42,530 nucleotides of DNA from a virus, in the IMG/VR virus record IMGVR_UViG_3300006810_000099, positions 1 through 42,530 of that record; one strand, 5' to 3'. Below, piece by piece: positions 97 through 42,048 of the stretch. The number at the start of each line of letters is the position of its first letter. The stretch's first letter is position 1. A program made the translations under genes and the position numbers. The notes beneath the pieces are model-generated. The model saw nothing but the letters and a program-made list of their open reading frames with translations, was not told the DNA's origin and did not search any database.

Positions 97-112
97 TCGT
101 ATAGCTTTCAAC
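97..112 (-). promoter_or_regulatory. GTTGAAAGC promoter-like motif (atypical copy)
   Basis: A perfect GTTGAAAGC core lies 34 bases before the ATG of the partial gene. Unlike the other copies, the second block TAG is not at the usual four-base spacing. Instead the core runs into a 7-bp perfect inverted repeat (87-93 with 98-104, loop 94-97). Confidence 0.6.
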
Positions 113-117
113 GGTCT

Positions 118-447
118 CTAGACTACTCTGATCTTTAATACGTTTCCTGTACGGTATAGGCCTCCAATTGGTACGACCGGATCAGCCGCCGCCGCTGCTG
201 TGTCGTCAGCAAGTTCTTGTAGACCGGTAAAGTCAATACGGGAAAAAGAGACCAAAGTGTCACCATTAACCGTTTTAGCTACACCGTCTGCACCTACATA
301 GTACATCTCTCCATGTACTTCGTTTAAGAATAGCTCGCCACGCTTTGCATTCGTCGGATCGATATCGTACAAATCTTGAAAATATTGCTGTCTTTTGGTG
401 GCTTCGGCAGTAAACCGAACTCCCCACCGGGGCATTGGGGTACTCAT
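118..447 (-). CDS. Small phage structural protein, GLYRTGNVLKIR type
   Basis: This is a 109-residue acidic to neutral protein. An N-terminal segment carries a RGELFLNEVHGEMYYVG block, which resembles the start of phage virion proteins that describe displayed properties. The C-terminus ends in DDTAAAAADPVVPIGGLYRTGNVLKIRVV-like text, whose GLYRT-G-LKIR ending I recognise from small structural proteins of cyanophages and other tailed phages of unknown exact role. The ATG lies 21 bases after a motif copy at 469-477, the commonest spacing in this window, and an AGAAGGA-like ribosome site precedes it. The gene is alone in its unit and is divergent from the kinase gene. The virion location is inferred from family resemblance. 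Confidence 0.75.
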   Translation of the reverse strand: MSTPMPRWGVRFTAEATKRQQYFQDLYDIDPTNAKRGELFLNEVHGEMYYVGADGVAKTVNGDTLVSFSRIDFTGLQELADDTAAAAADPVVPIGGLYRTGNVLKIRVV

Positions 448-461
448 AGTTCTTAGTCCTT

Positions 462-477
462 CTATACTGCTTTCAAC
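462..477 (-). promoter_or_regulatory. GTTGAAAGC-N4-TAG promoter-like motif
   Basis: A full bipartite copy (GTTGAAAGC AGTA TAG) sits 21 bases before the ATG of the 118-447 gene. It overlaps the region that would hold the -35 element of the divergent kinase promoter. Confidence 0.75.
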
Positions 478-479
478 CG

Positions 480-488
480 TGGTATACT
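480..488 (+). promoter_or_regulatory. Host-like extended -10 promoter for the kinase gene
   Basis: TGGTATACT is an extended -10 element (TGn TATACT), 25 bases before the ATG at 514. No convincing TTGACA-like -35 is seen, as is usual for extended -10 promoters. The same TGG-TATA(A/C)T form occurs before the small gene at 21720. Confidence 0.5.
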
Positions 489-513
489 GGTAGGGGTCAG
501 TAAATAGTGTTTG

Positions 514-1104
514 ATGGAAACCATCATCGTTCTCGGAGCCGACCGAGTCGGCAAGACCACGGCCGTGTCCAATACGAGGAGGTTAATTGAAGGATATGGC
601 TCTAGTGTGGTGCAGGCTCACTTTGGCCCGGTGTCAGAAAAAGATCACTACCCGGGTCAGCAATTCGCTGACTTTATCTATGGCACAGATAACATCGGCA
701 CCGATTTCCTCCTTCTCGACCGTTTCATACCCGACACGCTGTTTTACGAACCCCGAAGGAACGGCTTCCCTCGTATACCTTACGAATACGCTAATCACAT
801 CGAGTCGATGTATATGTCCATTTCAGCCCATTTTGATCTTGTTCTGATCCGACATCATTGGAATACGGACATTGAGAAACGTCACCTAGCCGAGATCGCA
901 AAACTCTATCCTAACCGCACAGCGTATTGGGAGAGCATTAATCTTAAGGCTAGAGAAGCTGAGCATAGAGAATATTATGAGTTTTTGGATAACTACTTGA
1001 ACAACCATTCTCTAATACCCTCAACCTCGATACACTACCTAGACGGAGAACTGTACGATGGGGATATCAACCTCTCATATTGCGAGTCTCTTCAACTGCC
1101 GTAG
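514..1104 (+). CDS. P-loop deoxynucleotide / thymidylate kinase-like protein
   Basis: The 196-residue protein starts METIIVLGADRVGKTT, with a Walker A loop at residues 8-15 (GADRVGKT). It carries a DRF motif at residues 69-71 (LLLDRF), the position of the DR(Y/F/H) element of thymidylate kinase-like enzymes. This suggests phosphorylation of a nucleoside monophosphate in the cytoplasm to feed phage DNA synthesis. Basic residues at about 115-130 (IRHHWNTDIEKRH) could form the lid. The start is ATG 514; an upstream TTG at 511 is less likely. A host-like extended -10 element precedes it and a terminator follows, so it may be an early single-gene unit. Substrate specificity cannot be read from sequence; polynucleotide or other small-molecule kinases remain possible. 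Confidence 0.75.
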   Translation: METIIVLGADRVGKTTAVSNTRRLIEGYGSSVVQAHFGPVSEKDHYPGQQFADFIYGTDNIGTDFLLLDRFIPDTLFYEPRRNGFPRIPYEYANHIESMYMSISAHFDLVLIRHHWNTDIEKRHLAEIAKLYPNRTAYWESINLKAREAEHREYYEFLDNYLNNHSLIPSTSIHYLDGELYDGDINLSYCESLQLP

Positions 1105-1109
1105 GCAGT

Positions 1110-1125
1110 GTTGAAAGCTAGGTAA
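1110..1125 (+). promoter_or_regulatory. GTTGAAAGC promoter-like motif upstream of phoH
   Basis: A perfect GTTGAAAGC core lies just after the kinase stop, with TAA rather than TAG as second block. It is unusual in lying about 100 bases before the next ATG, with a hairpin terminator in between. Confidence 0.5.
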
Positions 1126-1173
1126 GGGTTGAGGACAAGCCTTTGACCAAAGAAACTAACCTCTAATCCAATG

Positions 1174-1203
1174 TGCGGACACGTTTTGTGATCCGCATTT
1201 TTT
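1174..1203 (+). terminator. Rho-independent terminator (possible phoH attenuator)
   Basis: TGCGGA (1174-1179) pairs with TCCGCA (1192-1197), extended by CAC/GTG after a one-base bulge. The loop is GTTTT, and six T follow immediately. It ends kinase transcripts and would also stop most transcripts started at the 1110 motif, so it could act as an attenuator for phoH. Confidence 0.75.
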
Positions 1204-1216
1204 GTACCTATTCAAC

Positions 1217-1969
1217 ATGCCTAAAGCACGGACCCGTAAAGACAAGGTAACCGAAGCATCGGTACCCGGATACGATGAAATTGCGTATGGTATCCCCGCT
1301 ACCCGTGGCGACGGGATCTGTTCGATTCATCCGAGAAATGAAAGTCAGCGCGAAGCGTTAGAATACCTGAGAACAAAAACACTCACCATTCTGACTGGCC
1401 CTCCGGGGACTGCGAAAACGTTGCTTTCTGTCTATATTGCGTGTGAAAAATTACAAAAACGCCAGATTGACAAAATCTATTATATCAAACCTATTGTAGA
1501 TACCCCTGGTGAGAAAGGGATTGGGTATTTACCTGGAACAGAGTCAGAGAAGCTCGAACCGCACGTAGCTTCGCTACGTGATGCGTTGAGTGTGTTTATG
1601 GCTAAAGGAAAAGCGGACTACCTGATCGATAAAAAGATCATCGAATTCTTGCCAATCGAACACCTGAGAGGTAGATCTCTACATCGATGTATGATTATCG
1701 CCGACGAAATGCAGAATGCGACGAGCCACAGCGTCCTCACGATTCTTACTCGACTCGGCGACCACAGTAGCATTGCGATGCTCGGGGATGTCGTACAGCG
1801 TGATTTGGCTAACCGTTTCGGTAGAGACGGTCTCTCCGATGCCGCAAAACGTCTTGGGGGAGATACCGAGAATATCGGCCACGTAAACTTTGGGTTTGAC
1901 GATATTGTTCGCTCAGATTTTGTTCGGTCAGTTATTCTCGCTTACGCCGACTTATACCAGGCGGCATAG
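1217..1969 (+). CDS. phoH: PhoH-like ATPase
   Basis: This 250-residue protein is clearly in the PhoH P-loop family, common in phages of marine and freshwater bacteria. Walker A is GPPGTAKT at residues 61-68. A YLPGTESEKLEPH segment follows, then FLPIEHLRGRSLH, then Walker B MIIADEMQNAT at about 159-169, and a sensor-like LTRLGDHSSIAMLGD block, in the order expected for PhoH. Family members bind ATP and have been linked to RNA metabolism and phosphate stress; the role in phage infection is unsettled. ATG 1217 is chosen because the in-frame TTG at 1202 lies in the terminator T-tract. No clear ribosome site precedes it. Its 3' end overlaps the minus-strand candidate gene at 1932 tail to tail. 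Confidence 0.93.
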   Translation: MPKARTRKDKVTEASVPGYDEIAYGIPATRGDGICSIHPRNESQREALEYLRTKTLTILTGPPGTAKTLLSVYIACEKLQKRQIDKIYYIKPIVDTPGEKGIGYLPGTESEKLEPHVASLRDALSVFMAKGKADYLIDKKIIEFLPIEHLRGRSLHRCMIIADEMQNATSHSVLTILTRLGDHSSIAMLGDVVQRDLANRFGRDGLSDAAKRLGGDTENIGHVNFGFDDIVRSDFVRSVILAYADLYQAA

Positions 1970-2150
1970 TGTTCTGTATGCTGGACGGGAAAAATAGTCC
2001 ACCTACAAACATCCAACGGTCAACGCACTGGTTGGGTGAATAGGGGCCTCTCGTCCAGTTTGGTATTTCGCATGCGGACAGAAAAGCGAGAGAAAAAACT
2101 ACCTCAGCTATTAAGAATGCTGATCCCTCAAAACTACCCTTATTGATCAT
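1932..2150 (-). CDS. Candidate tiny lipoprotein, antisense to phoH end
   Basis: A 72-codon frame fills the otherwise empty gap between phoH and the next plus-strand gene. It starts at ATG 2150 with AGGGG eight bases upstream and lies 18 bases after the minus-strand half of the palindromic motif at 2162-2177. The N-terminus reads MINKGSFEGS, then a hydrophobic run AFLIAEVVFSLAFLSAC that ends in LSAC, which fits a lipobox, followed by a polar tail with several Pro and Arg. This is the look of a small lipoprotein, such as an outer spanin of a lysis system, but no lysis partner is visible. The acidic residue within the hydrophobic run is unfavourable. It could be non-coding antisense transcription. 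Confidence 0.4.
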   Translation of the reverse strand: MINKGSFEGSAFLIAEVVFSLAFLSACEIPNWTRGPYSPNQCVDRWMFVGGLFFPSSIQNTMPPGISRRKRE

Positions 2151-2161
2151 TTTATCAACCC

Positions 2162-2177
2162 CTACATGGCTTTCAAC
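2162..2177 (-). promoter_or_regulatory. GTTGAAAGC-N4-TAG motif, minus half of palindrome
   Basis: Reading leftward, GTTGAAAGC CATG TAG has perfect core and spacing. It points away from the 2208 gene towards the small minus-strand frame at 1932-2150. Confidence 0.6.
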
Positions 2178-2187
2178 GTTGAAAGCC
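2168..2187. repeat. 20-bp perfect palindrome made of two promoter motifs
   Basis: GGCTTTCAACGTTGAAAGCC equals its own reverse complement. It consists of two promoter-like cores placed head to head, with both downstream TAG blocks kept. Probably a bidirectional promoter, or a site for a dimeric regulator. Confidence 0.85.
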
Positions 2188-2193
2188 TTATAG
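2178..2193 (+). promoter_or_regulatory. GTTGAAAGC-N4-TAG motif, plus half of palindrome
   Basis: GTTGAAAGC CTTA TAG lies 21 bases before ATG 2208, the same spacing as at 469 and 11267. This argues that the upstream in-frame ATG at 2166, which would place the motif inside the coding region, is not the start. Confidence 0.75.
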
Positions 2194-2207
2194 ATAAACA
2201 GCAAAAT

Positions 2208-5200
2208 ATGGCCACCAGTATAAGTGGATCTTACGGTCTTCAAGGTCAATCTCTGATTAGGGAGTTAAGAAGGAGATCGCCCAAAAAAGAGGGTGAAGGA
2301 AACTTTATTGGTCTACGCAGATCGTTAGCTCTATCTGATATCGACGACCCCCAAAAAGCATTAAACAACACTTTAGAGGGGATTAGTGGTAGCCTCATTG
2401 CTGAACAAACTCAGTACGGTGGACCATATAACGCTGCTGACTGGTCCACTACAGTTAACTTTGTAGATGAAGGTATTGACAGATCTTTCCTGTCTCAACT
2501 TGACGGGGCTAGCATAGGAGGAGGATCTCTAGGTAGTATTGTGTCTACTAACCCTAGGATTAGAATACAAGATAGAATTTCTTTTCTCAACTCTTTCTAC
2601 GGAGAGGGTAGTTTTCCAGGTATACACAGTGGTCCAGACGCCCAATTTTATAAGAACCAAAAGTTTAGAGAAATAGGGTTTATCAAGTTCACTTTTAACC
2701 CTACTACGGGTTTAGCAACTGTAAGTAGCATTAAAAACATAGAAAAAACTCTGGACTTAACTTCCTCTGGACTTCTAGGTAGTGAGTCTTCTGTAGTTTT
2801 TGACCTTGTCAGGTACACTACACCTTCTGGCTCCTCCCTGGATATAAATGGGGCAGGCATATCTTTAAAGCTTGAGTCTGGTCCGACGTGGTCAGTATTT
2901 GGCACAGGTGCTATTGGAAACTTGGTTGGTATTGATAATTCCACAAAAGACTCTGGAGATTTGAGCATATTTGATCAATTAGAGTTTAAATTTGTTAGGC
3001 AATACTCTGTAATGTACAGACCTAAGTGGTTTACAGAGTCTCCCGCTGAATCTTCTCCTTTTATTCAGGGGAGTGCTGATGATCTTAATCCAGCAACTAG
3101 TCCCAAAGTTCTCTTAAATAGCTCAGGAGTTATACGACCCTACGTGCAAAGGGGATATTGGAATAGTAAAGCTTATGTAGAAGAGAGGTGGACTGATACT
3201 GAGTATTTCAGACTCAGGGCATACAGTCAATCACCTACTAGTGATTCTATAATTGCCGAAGACTCTAATATGAGGTGGCAAGCACCACCTGATAAGATTC
3301 GAACCCAAGTGTATAACTGGGGAATTCGTTGGGATGGATATTTAAGAATTTTTCCGGGATTTTACTCGTTCCTAGTTCAAACCAATGTTGCTGTAAAAAT
3401 TGATATGGCAACCACTGTTACTGGCTCCTGGGAGACTGTTTTCAGTACGGATACGGCTATTGAAGTAGGGGAAAACACGTACATAGCTAATACTACTACG
3501 GATGTAGTGAATGACATAGCCGATAAGTATAAGTACGTATACGGTTCAAATCCTGATACAGACTGGGAAGCTTATATTCCTATCACTATTCGTTTGTATA
3601 ATGGTGGTCCGGACAAAGCTTACCCTGACCTTATTCCCCCGTACGAACCGGATTTATTTATAAAAACCACAAGACTGACCTTAGACAGAAACTACTACAA
3701 CGAAAGCCATCAATTTACAGTAGTAGAAGATACAGTCAATCCCGGGTCCTGGATACTAAACAGTGACAGTATAAGTAGAATTGTTCAGATTTTATCCGAC
3801 CCTGATGCATCAGTCCGGTATTTTATTACGGGGGCAGGGGAAGAAGTATATAGTTCACCTATTAATATTACAGAGAATTTATCAGTTGAGTTTTCAACTG
3901 TATCTCTGAATTCAATTTCTGTAATAGAGGGAGTTATATATACCTTGAGAATTTCCCCCTCCCTTAGCCAAGAGTTTTCGGAAAATCTTGAGGCTTTATG
4001 GAAAGGGAGAATAGCTTCTCCACCTAGCCCCTATACCAGGTACTCTGATCTGACTAGCGGAGAATACGAACCAAATCTAAAAAAAGTACCGTTTGACTCA
4101 AGAGCCGAGTGGTGGAAAGTCTCAGAAGGTAGTCCCTACGATAGGGGAAAAAACGTCACTAAAAGCAATACTCCGTTGGACGGGTTTGTTAGAAATGAGT
4201 TTAAATCAGAGCTTAAGTCTGACGCTTTGGGTATCGGACTTTATGGTGATGGTGCAGGTAACTACACAGGAGTTCCCAATGTAATACTGGGAGAAGCGAG
4301 ATATACAGAATCTGATGAAAAAGGATCTAACTACATAGGGTTAAGATTTAAACCCAATTTTGTAGGTGAGGGTGGAAGAATTGTCAGCAGAGCTTTACCT
4401 ATCAATAGTGTGTCTAGTTCTGATCCTTTTATTTTAGGACCAGATGACCTAGGGGGACTTAATAACTCTCAAACTATTGTTTCACAGAAGGGACTGACTC
4501 CTAAAGTAAAAAGGTTATTCATATCAGATCAGAACATAGCGGATTCAGAAGAACCATATAACAAATATTACACATTTAGGTACTTCGATGTACTTCCTTC
4601 TTCAGGGGTAACAGGCATCACGTATTACAGCTTATCTGAAGACGCTTTTTATACATGGAATGGGTCTTTTGTAGAAATTACTAGCCCTTCTGCCGACAAC
4701 CCTGCTGATTTTGGTCTACCATCCTTCTCTCAAGATACTCAGTGGTTGTCTCCCTTCAGCATGTCTGTTGTTAGGGTCGGAGACGATGTAAATATGACCG
4801 GAGGATCTTATTTAACGGCTCCTTTGGTCATGAGTGTTGAGAGAGTATTAATAGGTGGAGTGTACAAGTTACAGATATCTACTACACAGTCTTCCATATT
4901 ATGGCCTAACGGATTAGACTTGTCTCTATTTGATGGTAAATTTATAGAGTTTTATCCAGAACTAGATTTAGCATTTCAGTATCTGAATGTAGATACGGGG
5001 GAATCTTCTTCCTTCTCTGACGTAATTAAGCTTACTTACAACAGCGATAACACATTCAATGGGTTCTTAAGTGAAGCTCCTAGACCCCCCTCTGCCCGCG
5101 TCACTCCCTTCGGTTTTGATAAACCAGAGTTTAGTAGGGGTATTTGTTATCCACCCTATGCTATTAACAACCCACTGCTGTCCAATATCGCTGTGGAAGA

Positions 5201-5501
5201 AGAGCAGCTATATAGTTCTGCACCGGGCAACTACGACGTAATATGGGGGGATCCTACCAGAGATCTACTTGATGGTAAAACTCTCACTGTCACAGAGAAG
5301 CTAGAATTTCAGAATCAAGACGAATTAGCTGTAGAGTCTTTGGAAGATTTTGAACCGATTGAGATAACAGAAAATGATTATACTCACAGGCTCAGGATAG
5401 ACGTACCTGCTACAGGAGGTTTAGACGAAGATCAACTGGAATATATAGGAAGCGGTGAAATTGTCAAGGAGTTTTACTATTCATATGTTAAACTAAATTG
5501 A
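2208..5501 (+). CDS. Large virion structural protein with PA14-like region
   Basis: This 1,097-residue protein (start ATG 2208, judged from the motif at 2178) begins MATSISGSYGLQGQSLIREL. A central stretch at about residues 360-480 has WGIRWDGYLRIFPGFYSFLVQTNVAVKIDM followed by IPITIRLYNGG. This resembles the PA14 beta-barrel fold, a carbohydrate-binding module (resemblance by eye). At about residues 800-830 there is a YTWNGSFVEI element shared with other giant proteins here. It is rich in Ser, Thr, Tyr and Asn and has no membrane segment, so a tail fibre or baseplate location is likely. It is the only gene of its unit and overlaps the opposite-strand gene at 5493 by nine bases, stop against stop. 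Confidence 0.7.
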   Translation: MATSISGSYGLQGQSLIRELRRRSPKKEGEGNFIGLRRSLALSDIDDPQKALNNTLEGISGSLIAEQTQYGGPYNAADWSTTVNFVDEGIDRSFLSQLDGASIGGGSLGSIVSTNPRIRIQDRISFLNSFYGEGSFPGIHSGPDAQFYKNQKFREIGFIKFTFNPTTGLATVSSIKNIEKTLDLTSSGLLGSESSVVFDLVRYTTPSGSSLDINGAGISLKLESGPTWSVFGTGAIGNLVGIDNSTKDSGDLSIFDQLEFKFVRQYSVMYRPKWFTESPAESSPFIQGSADDLNPATSPKVLLNSSGVIRPYVQRGYWNSKAYVEERWTDTEYFRLRAYSQSPTSDSIIAEDSNMRWQAPPDKIRTQVYNWGIRWDGYLRIFPGFYSFLVQTNVAVKIDMATTVTGSWETVFSTDTAIEVGENTYIANTTTDVVNDIADKYKYVYGSNPDTDWEAYIPITIRLYNGGPDKAYPDLIPPYEPDLFIKTTRLTLDRNYYNESHQFTVVEDTVNPGSWILNSDSISRIVQILSDPDASVRYFITGAGEEVYSSPINITENLSVEFSTVSLNSISVIEGVIYTLRISPSLSQEFSENLEALWKGRIASPPSPYTRYSDLTSGEYEPNLKKVPFDSRAEWWKVSEGSPYDRGKNVTKSNTPLDGFVRNEFKSELKSDALGIGLYGDGAGNYTGVPNVILGEARYTESDEKGSNYIGLRFKPNFVGEGGRIVSRALPINSVSSSDPFILGPDDLGGLNNSQTIVSQKGLTPKVKRLFISDQNIADSEEPYNKYYTFRYFDVLPSSGVTGITYYSLSEDAFYTWNGSFVEITSPSADNPADFGLPSFSQDTQWLSPFSMSVVRVGDDVNMTGGSYLTAPLVMSVERVLIGGVYKLQISTTQSSILWPNGLDLSLFDGKFIEFYPELDLAFQYLNVDTGESSSFSDVIKLTYNSDNTFNGFLSEAPRPPSARVTPFGFDKPEFSRGICYPPYAINNPLLSNIAVEEEQLYSSAPGNYDVIWGDPTRDLLDGKTLTVTEKLEFQNQDELAVESLEDFEPIEITENDYTHRLRIDVPATGGLDEDQLEYIGSGEIVKEFYYSYVKLN

Positions 5502-11259: not shown

Positions 11260-11275
11260 CTAACTAGCTTTCAAC
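11260..11275 (-). promoter_or_regulatory. GTTGAAAGC-N4-TAG promoter-like motif
   Basis: GTTGAAAGC TAGT TAG is placed 21 bases before ATG 11245 in the 34-base gap after the 1,358-residue gene. Confidence 0.75.
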
Positions 11276-20710: not shown

Positions 20711-20723
20711 GCTAATCGTCTCC

Positions 20724-20739
20724 TATATTAGCTTTCAAC
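20724..20739 (-). promoter_or_regulatory. GTTGAAAGC promoter-like motif (5-base spacing)
   Basis: GTTGAAAGC TAATA TAG has one extra spacer base; AGGAG follows and the ATG is 20 bases after the core. The core overlaps the last codons and stop (GTT GAA AGC TAA) of the 60-residue upstream gene. Confidence 0.72.
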
Positions 20740-21626: not shown

Positions 21627-21642
21627 CTATAGAGCTTTCAAC
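21627..21642 (-). promoter_or_regulatory. GTTGAAAGC-N4-TAG promoter-like motif
   Basis: GTTGAAAGC TCTA TAG lies 22 bases before ATG 21611. The same downstream heptamer TCTATAG and following CAA occur at the 42040 copy. Confidence 0.75.
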
Positions 21643-22668: not shown

Positions 22669-23358
22669 TTACCAGGGGGGTGTAAACGATGCGGTGTAAC
22701 GGGCCACATCGGAAACTCTAATAGAGTCCATGTAGCCTTCAAAGTCCTGCCCACCAAAGCCATCCCAACCAATCATAAGAGTAGAGGTTGTAGGGTTATT
22801 TAACTCAGTATAACTTGAAGTCGATTGAACACCATCTAGATATAAGTGCCAAACAGTTCCATCTCGGACTGCTGCAACGTGATGCCAAGTATCAATGCTT
22901 ACGGCCGTTTGATGACTAAGCCTGAAACTCGGGGAGACGTAAATTGAAAGAGTTGTGCCGTTTATGTAAAGTCTAGGCCTGTTTGTGTAAGTGGTATCCG
23001 AGTTAAACAGGGCTTTCAAGGCCGTGCTTTTTGAGTAATAAATAAATCCCTCCCAGGTAAAGCTATCACCTGAGGCAAAAGCGAAAGCACCATCTGTTAC
23101 TGTTAATGCAGCATCTGTACTCGGAAATAGAGCAGAAGAATCGCCAAATCTAGAGTTGGCAGTGCTGATGGTAATACCCGTCCCTACAGTTACGGTTTTT
23201 GGCGAAGGGCTTAAGTCAATAAAATTTGTACTTCCGTTCGCTCCTTCGCATTCAAGCAGCAGAACCGTATTAGCATCGGAGGTGAATGGCCCGGTCGGTT
23301 CAATGGGCACTGCTGCCGCTGCTCCCGCAGCCGCCCTTAACCCAAGAGGAATCCTCAT
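22669..23358 (-). CDS. LamG / concanavalin-like lectin domain protein
   Basis: The 229-residue product starts at ATG 23358 with a 4-base ATGA overlap with the upstream fibre gene; longer readings upstream are shadows. A short Ala-rich N-terminus (RAAAGAAAAVPIEPTGPF) precedes a jelly-roll lectin domain. Expected elements appear in order: LLLECEGANGSTNFIDLS, ALLFPST-like strand, FTWEGFIYY, TWHHVAAVRDGTVWHLYLDGV and the ending FEGYMDSIRVSDVARYT-ASFTPP. Such domains bind glycans, so a fibre-tip receptor-binding role is likely. It lies between the 1,042-residue fibre and the tail chaperone. Confidence 0.8.
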   Translation of the reverse strand: MRIPLGLRAAAGAAAAVPIEPTGPFTSDANTVLLLECEGANGSTNFIDLSPSPKTVTVGTGITISTANSRFGDSSALFPSTDAALTVTDGAFAFASGDSFTWEGFIYYSKSTALKALFNSDTTYTNRPRLYINGTTLSIYVSPSFRLSHQTAVSIDTWHHVAAVRDGTVWHLYLDGVQSTSSYTELNNPTTSTLMIGWDGFGGQDFEGYMDSIRVSDVARYTASFTPPW

Positions 23359-26300
23359 GCCACATCTCCCACATAAGCTCCGTACACCTGCGTGCCGACT
23401 TTCCAGAACTGGACGACGGTATAGCCAGATGTCGCAAGCGTAGGTGCGCTGCCGCCAGTCCACACAACGCCGCTAGCACCCCAAGTTGTATCCGTCCATG
23501 TAAGTGTATATGCAGTGCCGTCATCAATCATCAACGTCACGGCCTCACCCGCAGCAAAATTTGTTGCCTTGGGTGTGCGGCTAGCGCCAAGTGTGATTAG
23601 CTGAACACTACCGTTACTGGGATCCACTTCAAATGCAACTCCGTCACTGATCGTATAAACCTCTTCAAGAATTGTACCTGTAATAGCTGGGTCTTTAAAC
23701 GATCCGGTAGTTGTAATCAGCCCCTCGCTATCAATCAGAAGCCTGTCTATCCCTTCAGTAGAGACACTAAAGTCTGAACTAGATATAGATAGGCTAGTAT
23801 AGCCACTTAGATCTCCAAATTTTGAGATAATCTCAGTGCCTAAGTTTCCAGACAATTGTCCTAAAAACAGACTAGATTCTGAAGTAGTGTTTCCATTCCT
23901 GATAATTACCCCTCCGCTTCCAATTATAGACGGGGTCTCTATGAAAAATCTCCCATCAGAGTTGACTGATAGACGTTGAATACCCCCAGTAGAAATAGCT
24001 AATTCATCTGCACCGGGACTATAAATACCCGTATTTGTATGCGTACCAAAGTATATTGATGGTCCAGAACTGCTGCCTAAAGGTACACTTACAGTGCCTG
24101 TGCTATTGACACTAAAGTTACTCGTACTATTAAGCTGCAAGTCTAAAAGTTTTCCGGTAAAATTGCTTGGTGCGTTAATCCCAATCCCGGTTCCATTCGT
24201 ATTCCAACTGTCACTAACAGTACCTGAAGGTTCGACTAAAAGCTGTGGCTTAGTGGTCGTACCGGTACCACCACTAAACCAGGAACCGGTAAGAGAGAGA
24301 GGGGGTCCAGATGGAGAATTGCTTGTATCTATCTCTGCCAATGCTGACCAGATTAAATTGCCAGAACTATCAATGTAACTTTCACTTAAACCCTTGTATA
24401 CACCGAGGTAGTTATAAATTAACTGTCCCGACAAGCCAGAAACTAATGCGATGGTTCCACTTGAATCTGGTAAGCTGATTCTACGATCCTCAGTTGGGGT
24501 AACCGCCTGAAGTGTCGTAGTAAAATTATCTTGACTCTCTAGAATTATATTAGAACTGGTAGAAATAGACCCGGAAACAGTGATATCATTTTTGTTCTCC
24601 CATCTCTTAGTGACAGAGTTGTAGGAAATGATTTCGTCACCTTGTAACTCACTGGATATCTCAACGTCATGCAAATCAGAAAAACGTCTACCCGTATCCC
24701 AACGGACCATGATGATTCCGTTGTTTTTAACTGATACTACTGCGGCTACGGGGAGCTTAAGATTTGGTGCTTGGGGTTCAAATTTTGTGAAGCCTCCCGG
24801 CGTAGCAGGATCGCACCAAAGTATATCTCCTTCAGCCCACTGTCCATCTACACCACCCTCATCGATGTCAGTGTCGACGCCTTTCACCTCGCCGAACGAC
24901 CTTACATATCCATCCGCTCCCGCTGCGATGTTTTGTGCGGCTACACCGAAGAGTACGTAGCCGGGATAGGTTCCATCCGCGACCATAGGAGCGATATATA
25001 GCCTGCCGCTATTTCCATCGGTCTCACCGGTAAACATCACTGCCGTGCCAATCGGTATCGGACTCGCCGTACCATTACGGCACAGGGTAATGATGTCTTG
25101 GCCCAACGGGCTTAACACCCCATTGAGAAGGCCGATGTCCAGGGTACCTTTATCGGGGTTCCAGCCCACCTGCTGCGAGGTAGTGGGTTGAGCTGCACCG
25201 ATGGAAATAAGATTGTCGAAGGTGGCGATGCCGGTTACATCGAGGGTACCGGGAACATCGATGTCATCGGTCCACTCCACTCCTGTCCCGGCCGCATCGG
25301 TCTGAAGGAGCTGGCGAGCCGATCCATCGGCCAGCTTAGATACAGCAATCTCTGCGTTAGCCGAGATGTCCGCATTAACAACGGTGCCATCGGCAATCAT
25401 TACACTGGTAACAGTGCCGGTATCACCAGTCGTAACAATCGTCCCGCTAACGTCGGGCAAGGTATAAGACCGAGATTCTGTTAGAGTAGTAACCTCTAAC
25501 GTTCCAGATACTCCGGATTGATCGAAGATAAATCTTTTCGACCCATAGAGGGTTAAATCTCCCAGAGTGCTCACCCCTAACCGGTTTTGCCCATCAGTAG
25601 AGATAAATACATCTTTACCCGAACCGAGGTACAAACCGTAACCTCTGTCCGAAGAGAATGAGTAGGAGGGTAGAGACTCCGTACCATCTACAATACCAAG
25701 TTGTTTGTTAAAGTTCCAAGAATCCGACAGGGACTCATACAATATAGTCGCATCGGCACCTGATAATGTGATACCACCCCCATCGACCTGAGTAGAGTCG
25801 ATTGCGTTCCTTCCCAGGGTGATGTTCTTATCGTCAATCTCCAGGTTGACAGAATCAATCGTTGTCGTCGTCCCCTGTACGTCTAGGTCACCCAGAATTG
25901 TAACTTTTCCCGTACTATCACCAACTACGGCCGGATCAATAACCAGATTGGCCGGGCCGAGAATAGATCCAGTTAGGGTAAGATCGTTGAAGATTACATC
26001 TGATGTCGTACTGATATCCTGGCCTACAGAGATTTCTCCGTCCGAGATAGAAACCCCTGTGCCACCAGAAAAATGAGCCCGAACTTCTTCAGAGCTAGGG
26101 CCGGTATAGGATATTACTCCCGTCTCATCGTTATAGGCTAAAGACCCATCTCCTCCCAGGTCCTCCACAGAAACAGACTTCTGAGTACCAACCCATTCTT
26201 GGTCTTCTTCTTGCCAAAATCTCAGTACGGGGAAACTACCTGACCTGTCAATCCAAAACTCTCCATCAGACAGGTCGGTGTAATTTGTAGGCTGGGGTGA

Positions 26301-27206: not shown

Positions 27207-28093
27207 CAGCGTCTAGGCCCAACTCCTACAGTGCTTTCAACTGGGAGACATACTAAGTCTTCGTCTCTGCCTGTTAAGGAGACGAGCTTGGTGTTGGGGC
27301 GTGTACAGGTTACTTTTTTCTCGCAAATGTTAGGTTTTCCGTTGGGAACACAGTAGAGTTTTTCCCAATACTCCTTGGGAGGAGGACCTGAACGTATGAG
27401 GTCCGGATCATTGGGCATAGGCTTAATAGCAACATACGCGCAAGTATAATCTCCACACCTGCTGTCGTAGAGTGCCACATTTCCTGTTTCGTAAAAAGAC
27501 TCTCTTTCGAATCTAGCTTGACCCCATTCGTCCGAATTAGGGTCTACAAGGTCTTTCCCCCAAGACTCATTGAATTCACCCCAGGTAGTTCCAAATCCCC
27601 GAGGGTTGTAGTAAGAATACAGCTCAGACAGGCTTGAGACATTAGGCAAACCTACGGGGACAGAGGAACTGGCGTGGCATATCTCTTTCCACAAGTCTCT
27701 ATTAAATGGTCCAGCGGGGGCCGGGATGTCCTCTAAAGCTTCGTACACAGCTACCCTATACCCGTCACTCTCAATCCGAACTATTGTTTCACCAGAGACA
27801 TAGGATACTTGGCCAACGTATCTAGCTGATCCCCAACTCTCTACACTGAACTCACTTTCAAATCCCCAAGGTGCTGCAATATCCCCCCACTTAGTAGCTA
27901 TGCCTTTTGCCGTATTGTAGGTAGGGTAAGTCTGTAGAAGGGATAAAGTATCCCTGTCACACGTATTAATAGTCAGAGATTGACACGACTCGTCAATGAT
28001 GTCATTTACTTCGATATCTTTAGCTGCGAGCGCATTTAGCTGAGATGCTGTTAAGCAACTTACAGGGATATTGCCAAATGTTCTCGCAGCCAC
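27206..28093 (-). CDS. Virion protein with two repeated ~80-residue modules
   Basis: The 295-residue protein contains an internal duplication. Module 1 (about 67-140) runs from GIATKWGDIAAPWG through SARYVGQVSYVSGETIVRI to NRDLWKEIC. Module 2 (about 168-250) runs from GFGTTWGEFNESWG through ARFERESFYETGNVALY to PKEYWEKLYC. Each pairs a WGxxxxxWG start, a central tyrosine- and valine-rich strand set with a proline turn, and a W+xxC end. The second half resembles small carbohydrate-binding modules of chitin-binding type (YxxG-V ... W), by eye only. The C-terminus has several Cys. It follows the tail-tube gene by eight bases, so a tail or baseplate part is likely. Confidence 0.6.
   Translation of the reverse strand: MAARTFGNIPVSCLTASQLNALAAKDIEVNDIIDESCQSLTINTCDRDTLSLLQTYPTYNTAKGIATKWGDIAAPWGFESEFSVESWGSARYVGQVSYVSGETIVRIESDGYRVAVYEALEDIPAPAGPFNRDLWKEICHASSSVPVGLPNVSSLSELYSYYNPRGFGTTWGEFNESWGKDLVDPNSDEWGQARFERESFYETGNVALYDSRCGDYTCAYVAIKPMPNDPDLIRSGPPPKEYWEKLYCVPNGKPNICEKKVTCTRPNTKLVSLTGRDEDLVCLPVESTVGVGPRR
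27226..27241 (-). promoter_or_regulatory. GTTGAAAGC-N4-TAG motif inside upstream gene end
   Basis: GTTGAAAGC ACTG TAG lies within the last codons of the 27206-28093 gene, read there as V-E-S-T-V. It is placed 26 bases before ATG 27206 of the coiled-coil gene and starts the fibre unit. Confidence 0.7.
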
Positions 28094-28566: not shown

Positions 28567-28582
28567 CTATACAGCTTTCAAC
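28567..28582 (-). promoter_or_regulatory. GTTGAAAGC-N4-TAG promoter-like motif
   Basis: GTTGAAAGC TGTA TAG begins four bases after the portal stop. The leader to ATG 28530 is the longest among clean copies (44 bases), perhaps reflecting control of a highly expressed gene. Confidence 0.75.
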
Positions 28583-30530: not shown

Positions 30531-30546
30531 CTCCCTAGCTTTCAAC
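30531..30546 (-). promoter_or_regulatory. GTTGAAAGC promoter-like motif (GAG variant)
   Basis: The core is perfect and the second block is GAG instead of TAG. It lies just past the stop of the 72-residue gene and drives the portal gene. Confidence 0.65.
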
Positions 30547-31978: not shown

Positions 31979-31981
31979 GAC

Positions 31982-31997
31982 GTTGAAAGCAAGGTAG
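31982..31997 (+). promoter_or_regulatory. GTTGAAAGC-N4-TAG promoter-like motif
   Basis: GTTGAAAGC AAGG TAG begins four bases from the ATG of the divergent 31978 gene. It precedes the GTG start at 32020 by 29 bases and starts the plus-strand unit. Confidence 0.72.
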
Positions 31998-32013: not shown

Positions 32014-32019
32014 CAATTT

Positions 32020-35181: not shown

Positions 35182-35936
35182 GAACACTTTTATCATACTG
35201 TAAATACGTAGAAAATTCCAAAATCCTCGAGTTCGGCTCGAACAAAGAAGTGTTTAACTACGCAACAAACAATCTACGAAGCACTTTGCGTAAACAGTTT
35301 ACTGACTCTTTACAGATCGTTATCGAAGAAGCTGAGGATAAAATCGACACATTCAAGCTTACCAACCAGTCACTGACAACATGGGACGACTACTGGGTAA
35401 ACTCAGAAACTGGTCTGATTACAGACCCAATGATCATAGATATGAATCTGCAACGTAACAGTCTTATTTATGTGAATATGAATACCCCGAGGTTAGGTCT
35501 TAAAACTCTGAATCTGGAAGGTAACAACACTCTGGAACACCTTTATATCCACGAGTCTCCGGCCTTAGAAAGACTAGATATATCTTTCTGTACATCTCTT
35601 AAGTACGTATCTTTGGGTATTAATAGGTCGATTAAAGAACTTATCGCTAGAGATTGCAATATGTCCCCGTTAGCCATGGAACAACTCTTGAGAGACTTCG
35701 CACCGGTCTATACCTCTAGCGCCAATGTAAGGGGGGTAGGAATGTTCAGAAAACAACACAGCACTGTACTTGACCTGAGAGGAAACACGATAGACTGGAG
35801 CAACCGGAGGATAGCAAGCAAGATAAGATTGCTCCTTACCAACAATTGGGTTGTAAAGTGGGATAACAACCCGCCTTCCGATATCATACCTCCCTCTATG
35901 TATGGGGTTTTCGTTGAAAGCAGGGTAGAGATCTAG
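35178..35936 (+). CDS. Leucine-rich-repeat protein, 252 residues
   Basis: The N-terminal 80 residues are helical. Repeats of about 20-23 residues follow (about 90-160): LIYVNMNTPRLGLKTLNLEGN, TLEHLYIHESPALERLDISFC, SLKYVSLGINRSIKELIARDC. A segment then ends TVLDLRGNTIDW and a terminal WVVKWDNNPP. This LRR plus LDLRGN cap arrangement is known from phage and bacterial LRR proteins that bind other proteins or surfaces. ATGA overlap with the preceding large frame indicates coupled translation, perhaps as partners. Its last codons (V-E-S-R-V-E-I) contain the promoter motif of the next unit. It is a second LRR protein besides the one at 7430-11245. Confidence 0.78.
   Translation: MRTLLSYCKYVENSKILEFGSNKEVFNYATNNLRSTLRKQFTDSLQIVIEEAEDKIDTFKLTNQSLTTWDDYWVNSETGLITDPMIIDMNLQRNSLIYVNMNTPRLGLKTLNLEGNNTLEHLYIHESPALERLDISFCTSLKYVSLGINRSIKELIARDCNMSPLAMEQLLRDFAPVYTSSANVRGVGMFRKQHSTVLDLRGNTIDWSNRRIASKIRLLLTNNWVVKWDNNPPSDIIPPSMYGVFVESRVEI
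35913..35928 (+). promoter_or_regulatory. GTTGAAAGC-N4-TAG motif inside the LRR gene end
   Basis: GTTGAAAGC AGGG TAG lies in the last codons of the LRR gene, 22 bases before GTG 35944. This allows the downstream structural gene to be transcribed separately. Confidence 0.72.
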
Positions 35937-35943
35937 AGCTAAA

Positions 35944-37499: not shown

Positions 37500-37511
37500 G
37501 GTAAAGTTCTC

Positions 37512-37527
37512 TTAAATGGCTTTCAAC
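37512..37527 (-). promoter_or_regulatory. GTTGAAAGC promoter-like motif (TAA variant)
   Basis: A perfect core with TAA as second block, directly after the stop of the LamG gene at 37528. Confidence 0.68.
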
Positions 37528-38241
37528 TTAATATTGATCAAGTGGAAAAGGAAAGTCGGTAACGGTAAAAGAGTCATTGTACCTGGATACCCCATTGGTT
37601 ATTCTGACACTATCAAATTTACCAGGGAAGAAATTTACTGTTGGCGGAACGTGGTAGTAAAAAGAACCAACTAGTAGGTTGTTTTGATTGAATTCAATCG
37701 GGTCAGAGTAAGTACTACTGGCTTCTAAATTTCCATTTATAAAAATTCTGATTGTCGAAGAAGACCTCGTTGCTGCTACATGGGACCATGTCTCTAGGGG
37801 AACAGTTCCGTTAGACTCTAGACTTACCCCCCAACCGGAGGAAGAGTCAGAAGTAGCAGAAAAATATAACTGTTGAGTAGTTGTTATTTGAAAGGACCAG
37901 GATCCTGCACCGAAGAATTGCTCGTTAGCTCTGTTTTTAGCAACCAGGGACCTATTTCCACCCCCTTGATTGTAGACCCAGCATTCTACTGTAAAGTCAT
38001 TCTGGTCGAAATCAAAGAACCTGTTATTGGGTACAGAGAGATAGCTACTCCCATCCAGGCTAATAGACCCTGATCCAAATTTTGTGATATTTGTGTCTAC
38101 GACAGGGTTTCCCGAGGTCAGTATTTGTCTGTCAGCTCGACTTTTATCCACAAATGAGCCATTCTCTACTTGTAAGAGCAGAGAAACGTTACTCAGGTAA
38201 GGGTCTCCTGACTCGTAGTTAGAAGTTAATTGAAATCCCAT
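37528..38241 (-). CDS. LamG-like lectin protein, copy A
   Basis: This 237-residue protein is almost entirely one jelly-roll (LamG / concanavalin A-like) domain: GDPYLSNVSLLLQVENGSFVDKS, SGSISLDGSSYLSVP, FDFDQNDFTVECWVYNQ, LETWSHVAATRSSSTIRIFINGN and the FPGKFDSVRITNGVSRY-SF ending. Such domains bind glycans at fibre tips. It is a tandem duplicate of the next gene (38262-38978), with well over half of residues alike by eye, and lies in the same unit from 39303. The C-terminal FPFPLDQY matches the AYPQGQY of its copy. Confidence 0.82.
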   Translation of the reverse strand: MGFQLTSNYESGDPYLSNVSLLLQVENGSFVDKSRADRQILTSGNPVVDTNITKFGSGSISLDGSSYLSVPNNRFFDFDQNDFTVECWVYNQGGGNRSLVAKNRANEQFFGAGSWSFQITTTQQLYFSATSDSSSGWGVSLESNGTVPLETWSHVAATRSSSTIRIFINGNLEASSTYSDPIEFNQNNLLVGSFYYHVPPTVNFFPGKFDSVRITNGVSRYNDSFTVTDFPFPLDQY

Positions 38242-38261
38242 TTATTTTGCCAGGTTTAAGA

Positions 38262-38978
38262 TTAATATTGTCCCTGTGGATAAGCGGAATCAGGAGTTGA
38301 AAAAGAGTCTGTGTATCTGCATACCCCGTTAGTTATCCGGAGATCTTCTATATTTCCTGTAAATAAGTTAACAATTGGAGGGACGTGGTAGTATAATGCC
38401 GCCACGAGTAGAGGATTGTTATTAAATTCAACTGATCCTGAAAAGGTTCCAGTAGTTTCTAAGTTGCCATTAATAAATGTTCTGACTGTAGAACCCGATC
38501 TCGTAGCAGCTACATGAGACCAGGTATTAAGAGGGATACTGTTGGTCGAAAGAGACTCTGTTTCCCACCCGTTGTTAGTAGAATCACTTGTCAAACCAAA
38601 ATATAATCTCTGTTCGAACGAAATCCTCATGGTAAACGACCCTGCACCGTAAAAGGGTTCATTTGCCCTGTTTTTTGCAACAAATTCTCTGTTATCGCCT
38701 CCCCCATTATATACCCACATTTCTATGGTAAAATCATTGTCTTTGAAGTCAAAGATTCCTCTGCTTGGGATAGACAAATAGTTGCTGCCATTAAAGTATA
38801 TGGACCCTGGACTGTATTTTTTAATGCTCGTATCTACAATAGGGTTGTTGTTGAGGATAATCTGGTTATCCGCTCTGCTATCATCAACAATGTTTACTCC
38901 GTCTGTTCTAAGCAAAAGGGATACATTGCTCAGATATGGGTCTCCTTTGACGTAGGATGAGGTGATTTGAAATCCCAT
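38262..38978 (-). CDS. LamG-like lectin protein, copy B
   Basis: The 238-residue tandem paralogue of the preceding LamG protein has the same order of strands (GDPYLSNVSLLLRTDGVNIVDDS, FNGSNYLSIPSRGIFDF, TWSHVAATRSGSTVRTFINGN, LRITNGVCRY). The differences concentrate in loops and short stretches, as expected if the copies recognise different glycans. It is 20 bases from its copy and follows the small 98-residue gene. Confidence 0.82.
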   Translation of the reverse strand: MGFQITSSYVKGDPYLSNVSLLLRTDGVNIVDDSRADNQIILNNNPIVDTSIKKYSPGSIYFNGSNYLSIPSRGIFDFKDNDFTIEMWVYNGGGDNREFVAKNRANEPFYGAGSFTMRISFEQRLYFGLTSDSTNNGWETESLSTNSIPLNTWSHVAATRSGSTVRTFINGNLETTGTFSGSVEFNNNPLLVAALYYHVPPIVNLFTGNIEDLRITNGVCRYTDSFSTPDSAYPQGQY

Positions 38979-38982
38979 GGTG

Positions 38983-39279
38983 TTAAGATTTGGCTACGGT
39001 AAGAAGATCGCCTTCGGCGTTGTAAGTAAGAGATACGGTGGCTACTGTCGAACCGGAACTCTTGTAGACGATAGTGGTTACTCGACCGGCCGTATAGGTC
39101 AGCTCGACTGAGTCGTGAGCAGGGATACCCAGGCCGGATATGATGATAGGAAGGGCAGACAGGGAGGGTGATGTTACGTTTCCACTGGCATCGGCAATCT
39201 GAATGACTTGGAATGTTTTTCCTCCGGCTACATTGATAGCCTCGTCATTTACTTGGCCGGGGTTATCGTAATATGCCAT
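38983..39279 (-). CDS. Small phage beta-protein, 98 residues
   Basis: Reads MAYYDNPGQVNDEAINVAGGKTFQVIQIADASG with a SVELTYTAGRVTTIVYKSSGSTVATVSLTYNAEGDL end. The repeated short strands match a small cyanophage structural module, in which a YT--VVYK-G--VATVTLTYD pattern is usual; its role is unknown. It starts the unit from 39303, immediately before the two LamG genes, and could be their attachment or adaptor protein (inference). Confidence 0.6.
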   Translation of the reverse strand: MAYYDNPGQVNDEAINVAGGKTFQVIQIADASGNVTSPSLSALPIIISGLGIPAHDSVELTYTAGRVTTIVYKSSGSTVATVSLTYNAEGDLLTVAKS

Positions 39280-39295
39280 GGGCGTGTTAACTTGT

Positions 39296-39311
39296 CTAAA
39301 TAGCTTTCAAC
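39296..39311 (-). promoter_or_regulatory. GTTGAAAGC-N4-TAG promoter-like motif
   Basis: GTTGAAAGC TATT TAG is 23 bases before ATG 39279 and starts the LamG unit. It lies just after the stop of the DUF1566-like gene. Confidence 0.75.
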
Positions 39312-39313
39312 AA

Positions 39314-39955
39314 CTATAGAGTAATGCGCCTAAAGGCACGAACTGATAAATAACCTGCATTAGTTCCATTAAGATTATAACCTCCACTTTGAAAATATGC
39401 TGCCCATATGGGATAAGAATTACTCTCTTGGCTAGAAGTCCAGTACCCCTCAGCCTTAAAGGACTCTGAACCGCCCAGAATAAACTCTGGTACATAGGTT
39501 CTAGGTGGATCTAGACGAACATAATTGGAATACCTTCTTGGTACAGAGTATGGGTTAACACCTTGACCAGAATCGAAGCCAAATGTGGGTTTTAAGTTAA
39601 TATACACAGACAGCATCTCATAAAGAGAAGGCAAGTACCAGTCCGTAAAGCCACCAATGCTAAGGTTTACACAAAACTGGGCGGCTGGGTGACTAGAAAT
39701 TCCTGCGTCCACCATTGCTAGTGTGTTAGACACACCGTCAATAAGGCTTTTTGTGTTGGGAGTTTGAGTATCTGAGGTTTTCCAGGATACAGGAGATGAC
39801 AATTCCCCGGTTGCTTTAGGGGATACGATGAGGGCGTGGGTAGGTATACTATTCGCAGTCCAGCTAATGAATCCCCCTACAAACCCTCCTCCATAGGGGG
39901 TTCCAATTGGGACTCCGTCTAGACTTTTAATCCCTGGTGTGATAGTCCAACTCAT
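39314..39955 (-). CDS. DUF1566 / C-type-lectin-like adhesin, 213 residues
   Basis: The C-terminal half carries the DUF1566 (Lcl-like) pattern: SIGGFTDWYLPSLYEML at about residues 100-115 and GYWTSSQESNSYPIWAAYFQSGGY ... YLSVRAFRRI at the end. This fold is related to C-type lectins and acts in adhesion. ATGA overlap couples it to the glycine-rich gene, and it is the last gene of the unit from 42040. Receptor binding at the tail is the likely role. No reverse transcriptase or template repeat is seen nearby to make this a diversifying target. Confidence 0.78.
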   Translation of the reverse strand: MSWTITPGIKSLDGVPIGTPYGGGFVGGFISWTANSIPTHALIVSPKATGELSSPVSWKTSDTQTPNTKSLIDGVSNTLAMVDAGISSHPAAQFCVNLSIGGFTDWYLPSLYEMLSVYINLKPTFGFDSGQGVNPYSVPRRYSNYVRLDPPRTYVPEFILGGSESFKAEGYWTSSQESNSYPIWAAYFQSGGYNLNGTNAGYLSVRAFRRITL

Positions 39956-40767
39956 ATCGCATACCTCACAATAACAATTCCAGAACCACCGGCTCCTCCA
40001 CGGAGATTATTATTTCTGCCGCCTGAGCCGCCGCCTCCGGTATTGGGTGAGCCATCGTTTCCTATCGAAGGATTTGCAGTAGGACCTGAAGCTCCTCCCC
40101 CCAGTCCCCCTGCACTAAAAGCATTTCCTCCTCCACCTCCGTAGTAGGTGGGTGTGCCAGTTATTGAAAATTCTCTTCCATTGATATTGTGGACAGTCGA
40201 GGTTCCTCCTGCACCGCCTCCACGGCCTCCAGCATAAATTGCAATAGAGTTTTGGCCGGGGGAGCCATAACCAATTGCTCCTCCAGAATTTCCCTGTAAC
40301 GCTGCTCCCCCGTTATATATGCCAGTACCTCCGGCACCTCCACCAGAACCTCCTGATGCCCCGGAATAGTATCCCCCGCCTCCACCACCTCTCGCAATAG
40401 AGTCAAATGCAGAGCTATTACCCCCATTCGTGCCACTGCTGGTGTCACGGCCAATGCCACCCCCACCAATAACTACGGGATATGATCCTTTTAACAAAGG
40501 TTTTCCACTATGGTACAGTACACCTCCAGCACCACCTCCAGAACCACCTCCATAACCAGCCCCTCCGCCACCGCCGCCAGCGACTACAAGGTATTCAAAG
40601 GTTCCTTCACTCAGTACGTTAAAACTACTAGACCCTACAGTTGTAAACATGTGAATTCTATAGACTATATCTTCCACTTTAATAATGTATGACGTATCTC
40701 CACCCTGAGCCCATGCACCTGACTGTTTACGGAGAATTAGACGTCCGGGGGTGTAAATAGGGCTCAT
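39952..40767 (-). CDS. Glycine-rich adhesin-like tail protein
   Basis: The 271-residue protein has a short beta start (YIIKVEDIVYRIHMFTTVGSSSFNVL) and EYLVVAGGGGGGAGYGGG, then a long run of Gly-rich segments (GGGGGGYYSG, GGRGGGAGG, GGLGGGASG) and a final GGAGGSGIVIVRYAI. This is the glycine-rich domain found on fibre tips, which in phage adhesins stacks as polyglycine helices with variable loops between. The GIVIVRY ending is diagnostic. ATGA overlaps on both sides couple it to the LamG-like and DUF1566 genes. Confidence 0.85.
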   Translation of the reverse strand: MSPIYTPGRLILRKQSGAWAQGGDTSYIIKVEDIVYRIHMFTTVGSSSFNVLSEGTFEYLVVAGGGGGGAGYGGGSGGGAGGVLYHSGKPLLKGSYPVVIGGGGIGRDTSSGTNGGNSSAFDSIARGGGGGGYYSGASGGSGGGAGGTGIYNGGAALQGNSGGAIGYGSPGQNSIAIYAGGRGGGAGGTSTVHNINGREFSITGTPTYYGGGGGNAFSAGGLGGGASGPTANPSIGNDGSPNTGGGGSGGRNNNLRGGAGGSGIVIVRYAI

Positions 40768-41558
40768 GGCAGAGGTATTAATATTTTATAGGGGTGGTTA
40801 GAAGGTAAATTTTCAGTTAACCCTAGTTTGTGGGCTAGATAGCCCTCTAGCTTTTGGCGATCACCATCTAGTAAAACTCCTCTAGTGACAATAATTTCTG
40901 ATGTGACAAATTTGCCAAAACCGATAGCTTCTGGTCTGCGCCAAGGACCGATCGTAAATTTGTCAATGTCTATGTCATTTGAGTTAAGAGACCCACTGGC
41001 GTAGAGAGAGCCGTTTACGGTCATCGTAAAAAACGTACCTGTAAAGACTAAAGAAATGATTTGATTTCCCCCCCACACTGGTGTGTTTCCCTCTAAAGTA
41101 TAGCTATTAGCATCACCTGGTGATCTCCTATACGTACGGAGGTAACCATTAGGGTTTACCTGAACGTAATGCCCCGTAAAAGTCAAGTTACTGCCAAAAG
41201 TAACTAGCATAGAGAGCTGATTGGTTGCACAATTAACAGCCATAACCGCTGACCAGGGAGAATCTTTTCCATCAGCAATAGCTCCGAGACTATCGCAGGT
41301 TAGAAAATTAGAAACCCCGTCAAAACTTATTCCAGGGTTCCCGTTAAACGAGGTGGTATTGTAAGTTGGACGTGCTGTAGTGCTGGCAATAGCTACTCTT
41401 GAGTTCTCACTTTTGTCTCTCCACTCGCTGACAAGTCCACTGCTTTCTGTGATAGTAGAACTATCCGAAGCATCTAACCACAGAGATGTATTAAGAACCA
41501 TGTTAGGGTTCCAAATATCTCCGCTCCAGGTATAACCAGGTCTCCAGATTAGTGTCAT
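40764..41558 (-). CDS. LamG-type tail protein with HKLGL-LP-HPY ending
   Basis: The 264-residue protein has the N-terminal pattern LWLDASDSSTITESSGLVSEWRDKSENS, a jelly-roll middle (FTGHYVQVNPNGYLRTYRR; IISLVFTGTFFTMTVNGSLYASG) and the C-terminus EIIVTRGVLLDGDRQKLEGYLAHKLGL followed by LPSNHPYK. This combination is a widespread phage and bacterial surface-lectin module. It is coupled by ATGA to the glycine-rich gene and belongs to the unit from 42040. Confidence 0.83.
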   Translation of the reverse strand: MTLIWRPGYTWSGDIWNPNMVLNTSLWLDASDSSTITESSGLVSEWRDKSENSRVAIASTTARPTYNTTSFNGNPGISFDGVSNFLTCDSLGAIADGKDSPWSAVMAVNCATNQLSMLVTFGSNLTFTGHYVQVNPNGYLRTYRRSPGDANSYTLEGNTPVWGGNQIISLVFTGTFFTMTVNGSLYASGSLNSNDIDIDKFTIGPWRRPEAIGFGKFVTSEIIVTRGVLLDGDRQKLEGYLAHKLGLTENLPSNHPYKILIPLP

Positions 41559-41582
41559 TTTCTGTAGCCCCAGTTTAGATTA

Positions 41583-42011
41583 CTACTTTACTTCAGGTAA
41601 CGGTCTATCGTAAGCCAGAACCTCAGGCACTCGGGATTCGTCAAGAAGTCCGGCCTGGACGAGAAGACCTAGGCCGCTGACAACTCTCGGATCATTCAGA
41701 CTTACCCTTTCTTCTTCGGTTAGTTGTCCGAGAAGAGAGGAGAGAGTTTGTGCTTTCACCATTTCTTCCTCAGTGGCATCCGGGGACGGTTGTGACGCAG
41801 CGAGGATGGTCGCATATTCCTGGGGAGTGAAACGGGCGAAGAGAGCTGCGCTAGTGACGCTAGCAATCTTAAAGAGATCAGAATACGACTTCCCCTGGTG
41901 TTCGAGGAATTCCAGGGCGAGGGCTTCGGGAGTCGTACCGTTACGGTTGGCGGCTTCTACCCAGCCGTCAATTAGGACTGGATTGGTCAGGGTGATGGTC
42001 AGAGTGTCCAT
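41583..42011 (-). CDS. Unknown 142-residue helical protein
   Basis: MDTLTITLTNPVLIDGWVEAANRNGTTPEALALEFLEHQGKSYSDL is followed by helices with acidic loops (SPDATEEEMVKAQTLSSLLGQLTEEERVSL). No membrane segment is seen. It resembles small hypothetical proteins found next to cyanophage fibre genes, possibly a chaperone or assembly factor for the adhesins that follow; I do not recognise a named family. ATG 42011 is 28 bases after the motif core. It is the first gene of a four-gene unit. Confidence 0.65.
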   Translation of the reverse strand: MDTLTITLTNPVLIDGWVEAANRNGTTPEALALEFLEHQGKSYSDLFKIASVTSAALFARFTPQEYATILAASQPSPDATEEEMVKAQTLSSLLGQLTEEERVSLNDPRVVSGLGLLVQAGLLDESRVPEVLAYDRPLPEVK

Positions 42012-42032
42012 GGAGGAGATAGTGGATCTTTG

Positions 42033-42048
42033 CTATAGAGCTTTCAAC
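42033..42048 (-). promoter_or_regulatory. GTTGAAAGC-N4-TAG promoter-like motif
   Basis: GTTGAAAGC TCTA TAG, identical over its 16 bases and the next three (CAA) to the copy at 21627-21642. It drives the adhesin cassette 42011-39314. Confidence 0.75.

Follow-up and report, generated by a model that had tools for sequence, protein, structure and literature searches.

The stretch of DNA considered here (the window) is a linear IMG/VR record of 42,530 bases, IMGVR_UViG_3300006810_000099. Judging from its predicted proteins, the window is a fragment (42.5 kb) from an uncultured phage akin to the cyanophage S-TIM5 (Aurunvirus; NC_019516, complete, 172 kb), which infects Synechococcus. TIM5-like cyanophages are widespread, and related uncultured contigs are numerous; 20 of these, fetched whole and given G numbers, form our comparison set together with S-TIM5. 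The window and S-TIM5 have PhoH and a series of virion proteins in common, and among the window's large proteins one matches S-TIM5 over its full length at 35% and the portal at 60%. Placed at gene boundaries throughout the window is a short repeat, GTTGAAAGC, hereafter the G-form (eight-letter version GTTGAAAG), which differs by one letter from GTTTAAAG, the T-form, found in other members of the group. In this report we describe the repeat as a candidate promoter class, together with the sigma factor that would read it.

The window holds 16 exact copies of GTTGAAAGC where dinucleotide shuffles predict 0.28 (maximum 2 in 100 shuffles), and the reversed 9-mer does not occur in it. In 11 of the 16 a TAG follows four bases after the core, a pattern (GTTGAAAGC-N4-TAG) expected 0.01 times. 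Every copy is co-directional with the genes downstream, and in all but the copy at 1110 the core ends 18-43 nt ahead of an ATG or GTG in a co-directional open frame. An initial annotation of the sequence had proposed a phage-specific promoter class on these grounds; each coordinate and strand that it listed is correct, as are the variants it recorded, namely TAA (1110, 37519), GAG (30538), a five-base spacer (20731) and no TAG at +4 (104). The candidate promoter motifs are as follows, with distances to the start codon.

97..112, minus strand: motif, core 104-112, no TAG at +4; 34 nt to ATG of a gene that runs off the left end
462..477, minus strand: motif with TATAG; 21 nt to ATG 447, gene 118-447 (S-TIM5 gp114 ortholog); the S-TIM5 ortholog has the T-form
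1110..1125, plus strand: motif, TAA variant; about 83 nt to the listed start of a phoH-like gene, 1202-1969
2162..2177, minus strand: motif with TAG; 18 nt to ATG of a small open reading frame (ORF); head to head with the 2178 copy
2178..2193, plus strand: motif with TATAG; 21 nt to ATG 2208, virion structural gene ending at 5501 (gp116 ortholog)
11260..11275, minus strand: motif with TAG; 21 nt to ATG 11245 (gp118 ortholog, structural)
20723..20739, minus strand: motif, five-base spacer to TAG; 20 nt to ATG 20710 (gp121 ortholog, structural); TAG overlapped by GGAG
21627..21642, minus strand: motif with TATAG; 22 nt to ATG 21611 (gp008 ortholog, virion protein)
27226..27241, minus strand: motif with TAG; 26 nt to ATG 27206 (gp133 ortholog, virion protein)
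28567..28582, minus strand: motif with TATAG; 43 nt to ATG 28530 (gp135 ortholog, virion protein)
30531..30546, minus strand: motif, GAG variant; 26 nt to ATG 30511, portal gene; the S-TIM5 portal has the T-form
31982..31997, plus strand: motif with TAG; 29 nt to GTG 32020
35913..35928, plus strand: motif with TAG; 22 nt to GTG 35944 (gp142 ortholog, virion protein)
37512..37527, minus strand: motif, TAA variant; 19 nt to ATG 37499 or 26 nt to ATG 37492
39296..39311, minus strand: motif with TAG; 23 nt to ATG 39279
42033..42048, minus strand: motif with TATAG; 28 nt to ATG 42011

The leftmost starts used in the automatic ORF list mask some of these sites: the 2178 copy falls within an over-long ORF call whose likely start is ATG 2208, and for the portal gene 30511 is a more probable start than 30526. 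Together, the 2169 and 2178 copies form a perfect 18-bp palindrome, GCTTTCAACGTTGAAAGC (window 2169-2186); the two head-to-head sites abut there, so both could hardly be occupied simultaneously. Relatives, too, have pairs of sites that are adjacent or almost so.

Beyond the window, GTTGAAAGC-N4-TA occurs 2-20 times per contig in 14 contigs, and once in a further contig, G001. The consensus of 169 non-redundant sites is cGTTGAAAGC-N4-T(76%)A(82%)G(67%) followed by purines; upstream of the core in these sites nothing is conserved beyond the C at -1, and no -35 element is found. When the window and the 14 relatives are taken together, 82% of the 230 sites have a start 15-45 nt downstream, compared with 22% for permuted 9-mers, and the majority stand 20-29 nt ahead of the start codon. 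The placement of the motif at gene starts is non-random outside the window as well. In the most tightly spaced sites, GGAG or GAGG overlaps the TAG or comes directly after it. With a Shine-Dalgarno-like word in that position, the transcript would have to begin at or near the TAG, since the ribosome-binding site would otherwise be lost, and a start at or near TAG is what these sequences suggest. So narrow a spacing to the start codon could also be produced by an RNA-level element of the 5' leader that acts in ribosome binding, processing or translational control. Such an element is very unlikely, given that a distinct Shine-Dalgarno-like word stands after the motif, that the phoH sites stand 83 nt upstream in both clades, that copies lie back to back between divergent genes, and that the variable letter of the motif tracks the type of sigma factor, as described below.

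Six records (S-TIM5, G001, G011, G012, G016 and G019) have few or no gene-start copies of GTTGAAAGC. In an unbiased count of words preceding genes, GTTTAAAG came out as the top 8-letter word of these same six, with 24-36 copies in each of the three largest T-form records; it is also present in the short contig G020. The T-form occupies the same position as the G-form, with its core ending a median of 28 nt before the start, and its sites show no conserved -35 element; its TA(G) is weak and variably spaced. The site upstream of phoH in S-TIM5 lies 83 nt away, matching the spacing of the 1110 copy in the window. Of the 47 S-TIM5 genes with virion or packaging functions, 18 have GTTTAAAG in the 100 nt before them, among them those for portal, sheath and tail fibre; of the other 165 genes, 9 do. 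The label "late" is taken from this gene content only. The same genome (L010-L013) carries 13 copies of a host-like extended -10 sequence, TGATATAAT, several of them ahead of metabolic and replication genes such as those for topoisomerase II, nrdA and thymidylate synthase; these are probably an early or middle class. One G-form genome, G014 (IMGVR_UViG_3300005512_000010; L139-L143), contains 11 copies of GTTTAAAG where about 3 would be expected, and few of the 11 mark a clear gene start.

We consider it highly probable, on the strength of these comparisons of sequence, that the repeats are -10-only phage late promoters recognized by host RNA polymerase carrying a phage sigma factor. The core, GTTGAAAGC or in the sister clade GTTTAAAG, would occupy the position of the -10 element. 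The TAG some five bases downstream would contain the transcription start, probably its A or G, the leader would be very short with the ribosome-binding site following immediately, and no -35 element would be used. Transcription at the sites, the position of its start, recognition by this phage sigma factor and membership in a late class are all inferred. The promoter class itself is well supported by its count, its layout, its recurrence in 14 contigs and its placement at gene starts.

The initial annotation had likened the repeats to the promoters of a single-subunit, T7-like phage RNA polymerase, in which a specific block precedes a TATAG-like initiation site. The likeness in form is real, as the block is compact and strongly conserved, the TATAG is initiation-like and there is no -35 element. 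The analogy is nonetheless not supported by the genes found: no match to a T7-type RNA polymerase was found in complete S-TIM5 or in 118-159 kb contigs of either motif, in a search that detected T7 itself, and RpoB-type multisubunit polymerases gave no match in the records searched. Moreover, the TAG is far weaker in the T-form clade while the block is conserved. We therefore regard a T7-like polymerase as extremely unlikely.

A dedicated sigma factor, the secondary suggestion of that annotation, fits best. The S-TIM5 protein gp108 belongs to the sigma-70 family (region 2; PHROG 351), and the search for such a gene returned homologs in 17 of the 20 related contigs, the three without a match being short (17.8-31.5 kb); each of 8 large records has exactly one sigma-70 region-2 match. 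A structure model of the protein shows helices for sigma-2, sigma-3-like and sigma-4-like parts, with unreliable relative placement of the domains (pTM 0.36). Its best Foldseek matches are sigma factors, at full-length TM-scores (0.24-0.31) that are low because the domain arrangement is uncertain. The sigma sequences are of two types, about 40% identical, which part at a single branch of the sigma tree (support 99/92), and these correspond to the two motif types. A scan yielded 80 sigma loci, and in the 51 examined for motif against sigma type, type A (FSTWLNRSLTFQ) accompanies GTTGAAAG and type B (FSTWVNRCLQFH) accompanies GTTTAAAG, with neither motif in some short loci. The residues that differ between the types align without gaps to a stretch of cyanobacterial SigA, which we take to be region 2.3/2.4, responsible for recognizing and melting the -10 element. 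The ubiquity of the phage sigma factor also bears on a further explanation, namely that host polymerase with unmodified host sigma is assisted by a phage activator binding GTTGAAAGC. Short conserved blocks can indeed arise from activators, and other genes in the kin of the window phage are apparently served by host-like TGATATAAT promoters; yet no host-type -10 or -35 element stands at a fixed distance from the block in either clade, and with a phage sigma present throughout we judge an activator distinctly unlikely.

Orthologous genes allow the two motif forms to be compared site by site. The orthologs of sites 469, 1110, 2178, 20731, 21634 and 30538 mostly carry the G-form in G-form relatives and the T-form in S-TIM5-type relatives. 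A promoter in the window predicts one at the ortholog in G-form records (53/62 vs. 6/80) and in T-form records (13/23 vs. 2/25), although Fisher values for these counts are descriptive, since the records are mutually related. In two contigs, G016 and G011, the tail-module proteins resemble their counterparts in G-form phages more than the S-TIM5 proteins do; despite this, the two carry type-B sigma and T-form promoters, which suggests that the motif letter tracks sigma type and not gene ancestry alone. A mosaic contig, G001 (IMGVR_UViG_3300035703_000021; L109, L110), offers the complementary case. Its portal clusters with those of S-TIM5 and G016, its sigma is type B, and GTTTAAAG occurs 24 times genome-wide; the ORFs of its module at 72,993-91,816 (73007-91794) and those of G-form phages are about equally good matches to the window. 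Its gene-start G-form copies, at 72993, 81470 and 90894 (one without the C), lie at the edge of or inside this tail module. On a plain reading, G001 would be a natural recombinant in which a tail module from the G-form clade was recently imported with its GTTGAAAG promoters still attached. We give about even chances to a broader proposal, in which the sigma lineage changed specificity by one base (T vs. G in GTT-T/G-AAAG, plus the fixed C) with a few region 2.3/2.4 residues (e.g., Q vs. T, H vs. Q), the change then spread genome-wide, and G001 represents promoters out of step with their sigma.

Several points weigh against late promoters read by a phage sigma factor. An RNA-level element, too, would be expected to show so narrow a distance to the start codon. 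The predicted sigma-4-like C-terminal helices are of a kind that normally reads a -35 element, yet none is seen. No sigma gene lies within the window, a 42.5-kb fragment with the sigma region outside it; in a G-form relative, G017, sigma is about 6 kb from phoH, and by this synteny the gene would be expected some 5 kb beyond the window's left end. The G/T split maps onto about a single deep branching of the sigma tree; the association thus has few independent origins, and any other genome-wide factor could co-vary with it. A short type-B locus, L259, has one G-form copy and no T-form copy. Finally, the three G-form promoters in the T-form genome of G001 may mean that the two forms are not strictly exclusive, and type-B sigma may tolerate the G-form.

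Promoters with only a -10 element and read by a phage sigma factor are a known kind. In phage T4 the late reader is gp55, acting with gp33 and the sliding clamp gp45. T4 late promoters consist of an 8-bp element one helical turn or so ahead of the start, lack a -35 element and are served by a phage sigma on the host core (PMC2988020). The initial annotation had set the window's repeats apart from this type. That stands for the letters, which in T4 are TATAAATA and here GTTGAAAGC or GTTTAAAG, and neither the window nor S-TIM5 is enriched in TATAAATA. It does not stand for the layout, which is T4-late-like: a single 8-9 bp element placed roughly one turn of the helix upstream of the presumed start, no -35, AT-rich sequence just downstream, late genes served and a phage-encoded sigma as the predicted reader. 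Membership of the gp55 family was considered and rejected, as phrog_234 had no match in S-TIM5 and four large relatives while matching T4, and an alignment of the phage sigma with gp55 revealed no homology; the TIM5-type sigma is longer than gp55 and has the sigma-3-like and sigma-4-like helices. A gp45-type clamp (PF09116) was matched in T4 and not in the relatives, in a search that also missed presumed T4-like contigs. In contigs related through one structural domain only, ATAAATA is enriched upstream of genes and gp55-family sigma occurs in one of three tested, so word counting seems to find the known T4-type signal; a 26-kb T4 segment tried as its control was too small and held mostly early genes.

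Phages phiEco32 and 7-11 likewise encode a sigma factor, distantly related to sigma-A, with the consensus TAATGTATA (PMC4331800). They resemble the window class in the phage-encoded sigma, a 9-bp motif and structural genes under phage promoters (PMC4331800), and differ in sequence. Synechococcus phage S-CBWM1 (NC_048106; L272-L274) repeats GGGTAAAA/GGTAAAA in what looks like that phage's own promoter class; most copies stand 21-45 nt ahead of a gene, and the many genes concerned include those for portal, protease and tail fibre. Layout is the same and the sigma is related (27% identity); the letters are different, and either of two sigma genes in that genome may be the reader. GTTGAAAG, GTTTAAAG and GGGTAAAA share the frame G-K-K-K-A-A-A-R. 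In Cr-LKS4 (30% sigma identity) the top words were TTGACA and ribosome-binding-like sequences, with no clear related motif.

In the literature searched, which lacked the original S-TIM5 paper, we found no published account of late-gene control in TIM5-like cyanophages and no description of the motif sequence, the sigma lineage or the genome-wide one-letter difference. Searches on the motif strings returned nothing relevant, and an earlier mention in that paper is possible. The motif provides a ready operon map for TIM5-like cyanophages. Moreover, the paired sigma and promoter types constitute a natural experiment in which a sigma factor and dozens of promoters would have shifted specificity together, an evolving promoter code open to direct testing by means of a cultured phage and one protein in its two versions.

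Apart from the promoters, three genes of the window (22669-23463, 37528-38241 and 38262-38978) match the same concanavalin-A-like lectin families, Laminin_G_3 (Pfam) in the case of the first two and PHROG 3545 and 24074 in all three, and are probably paralogous adhesin or tail proteins.

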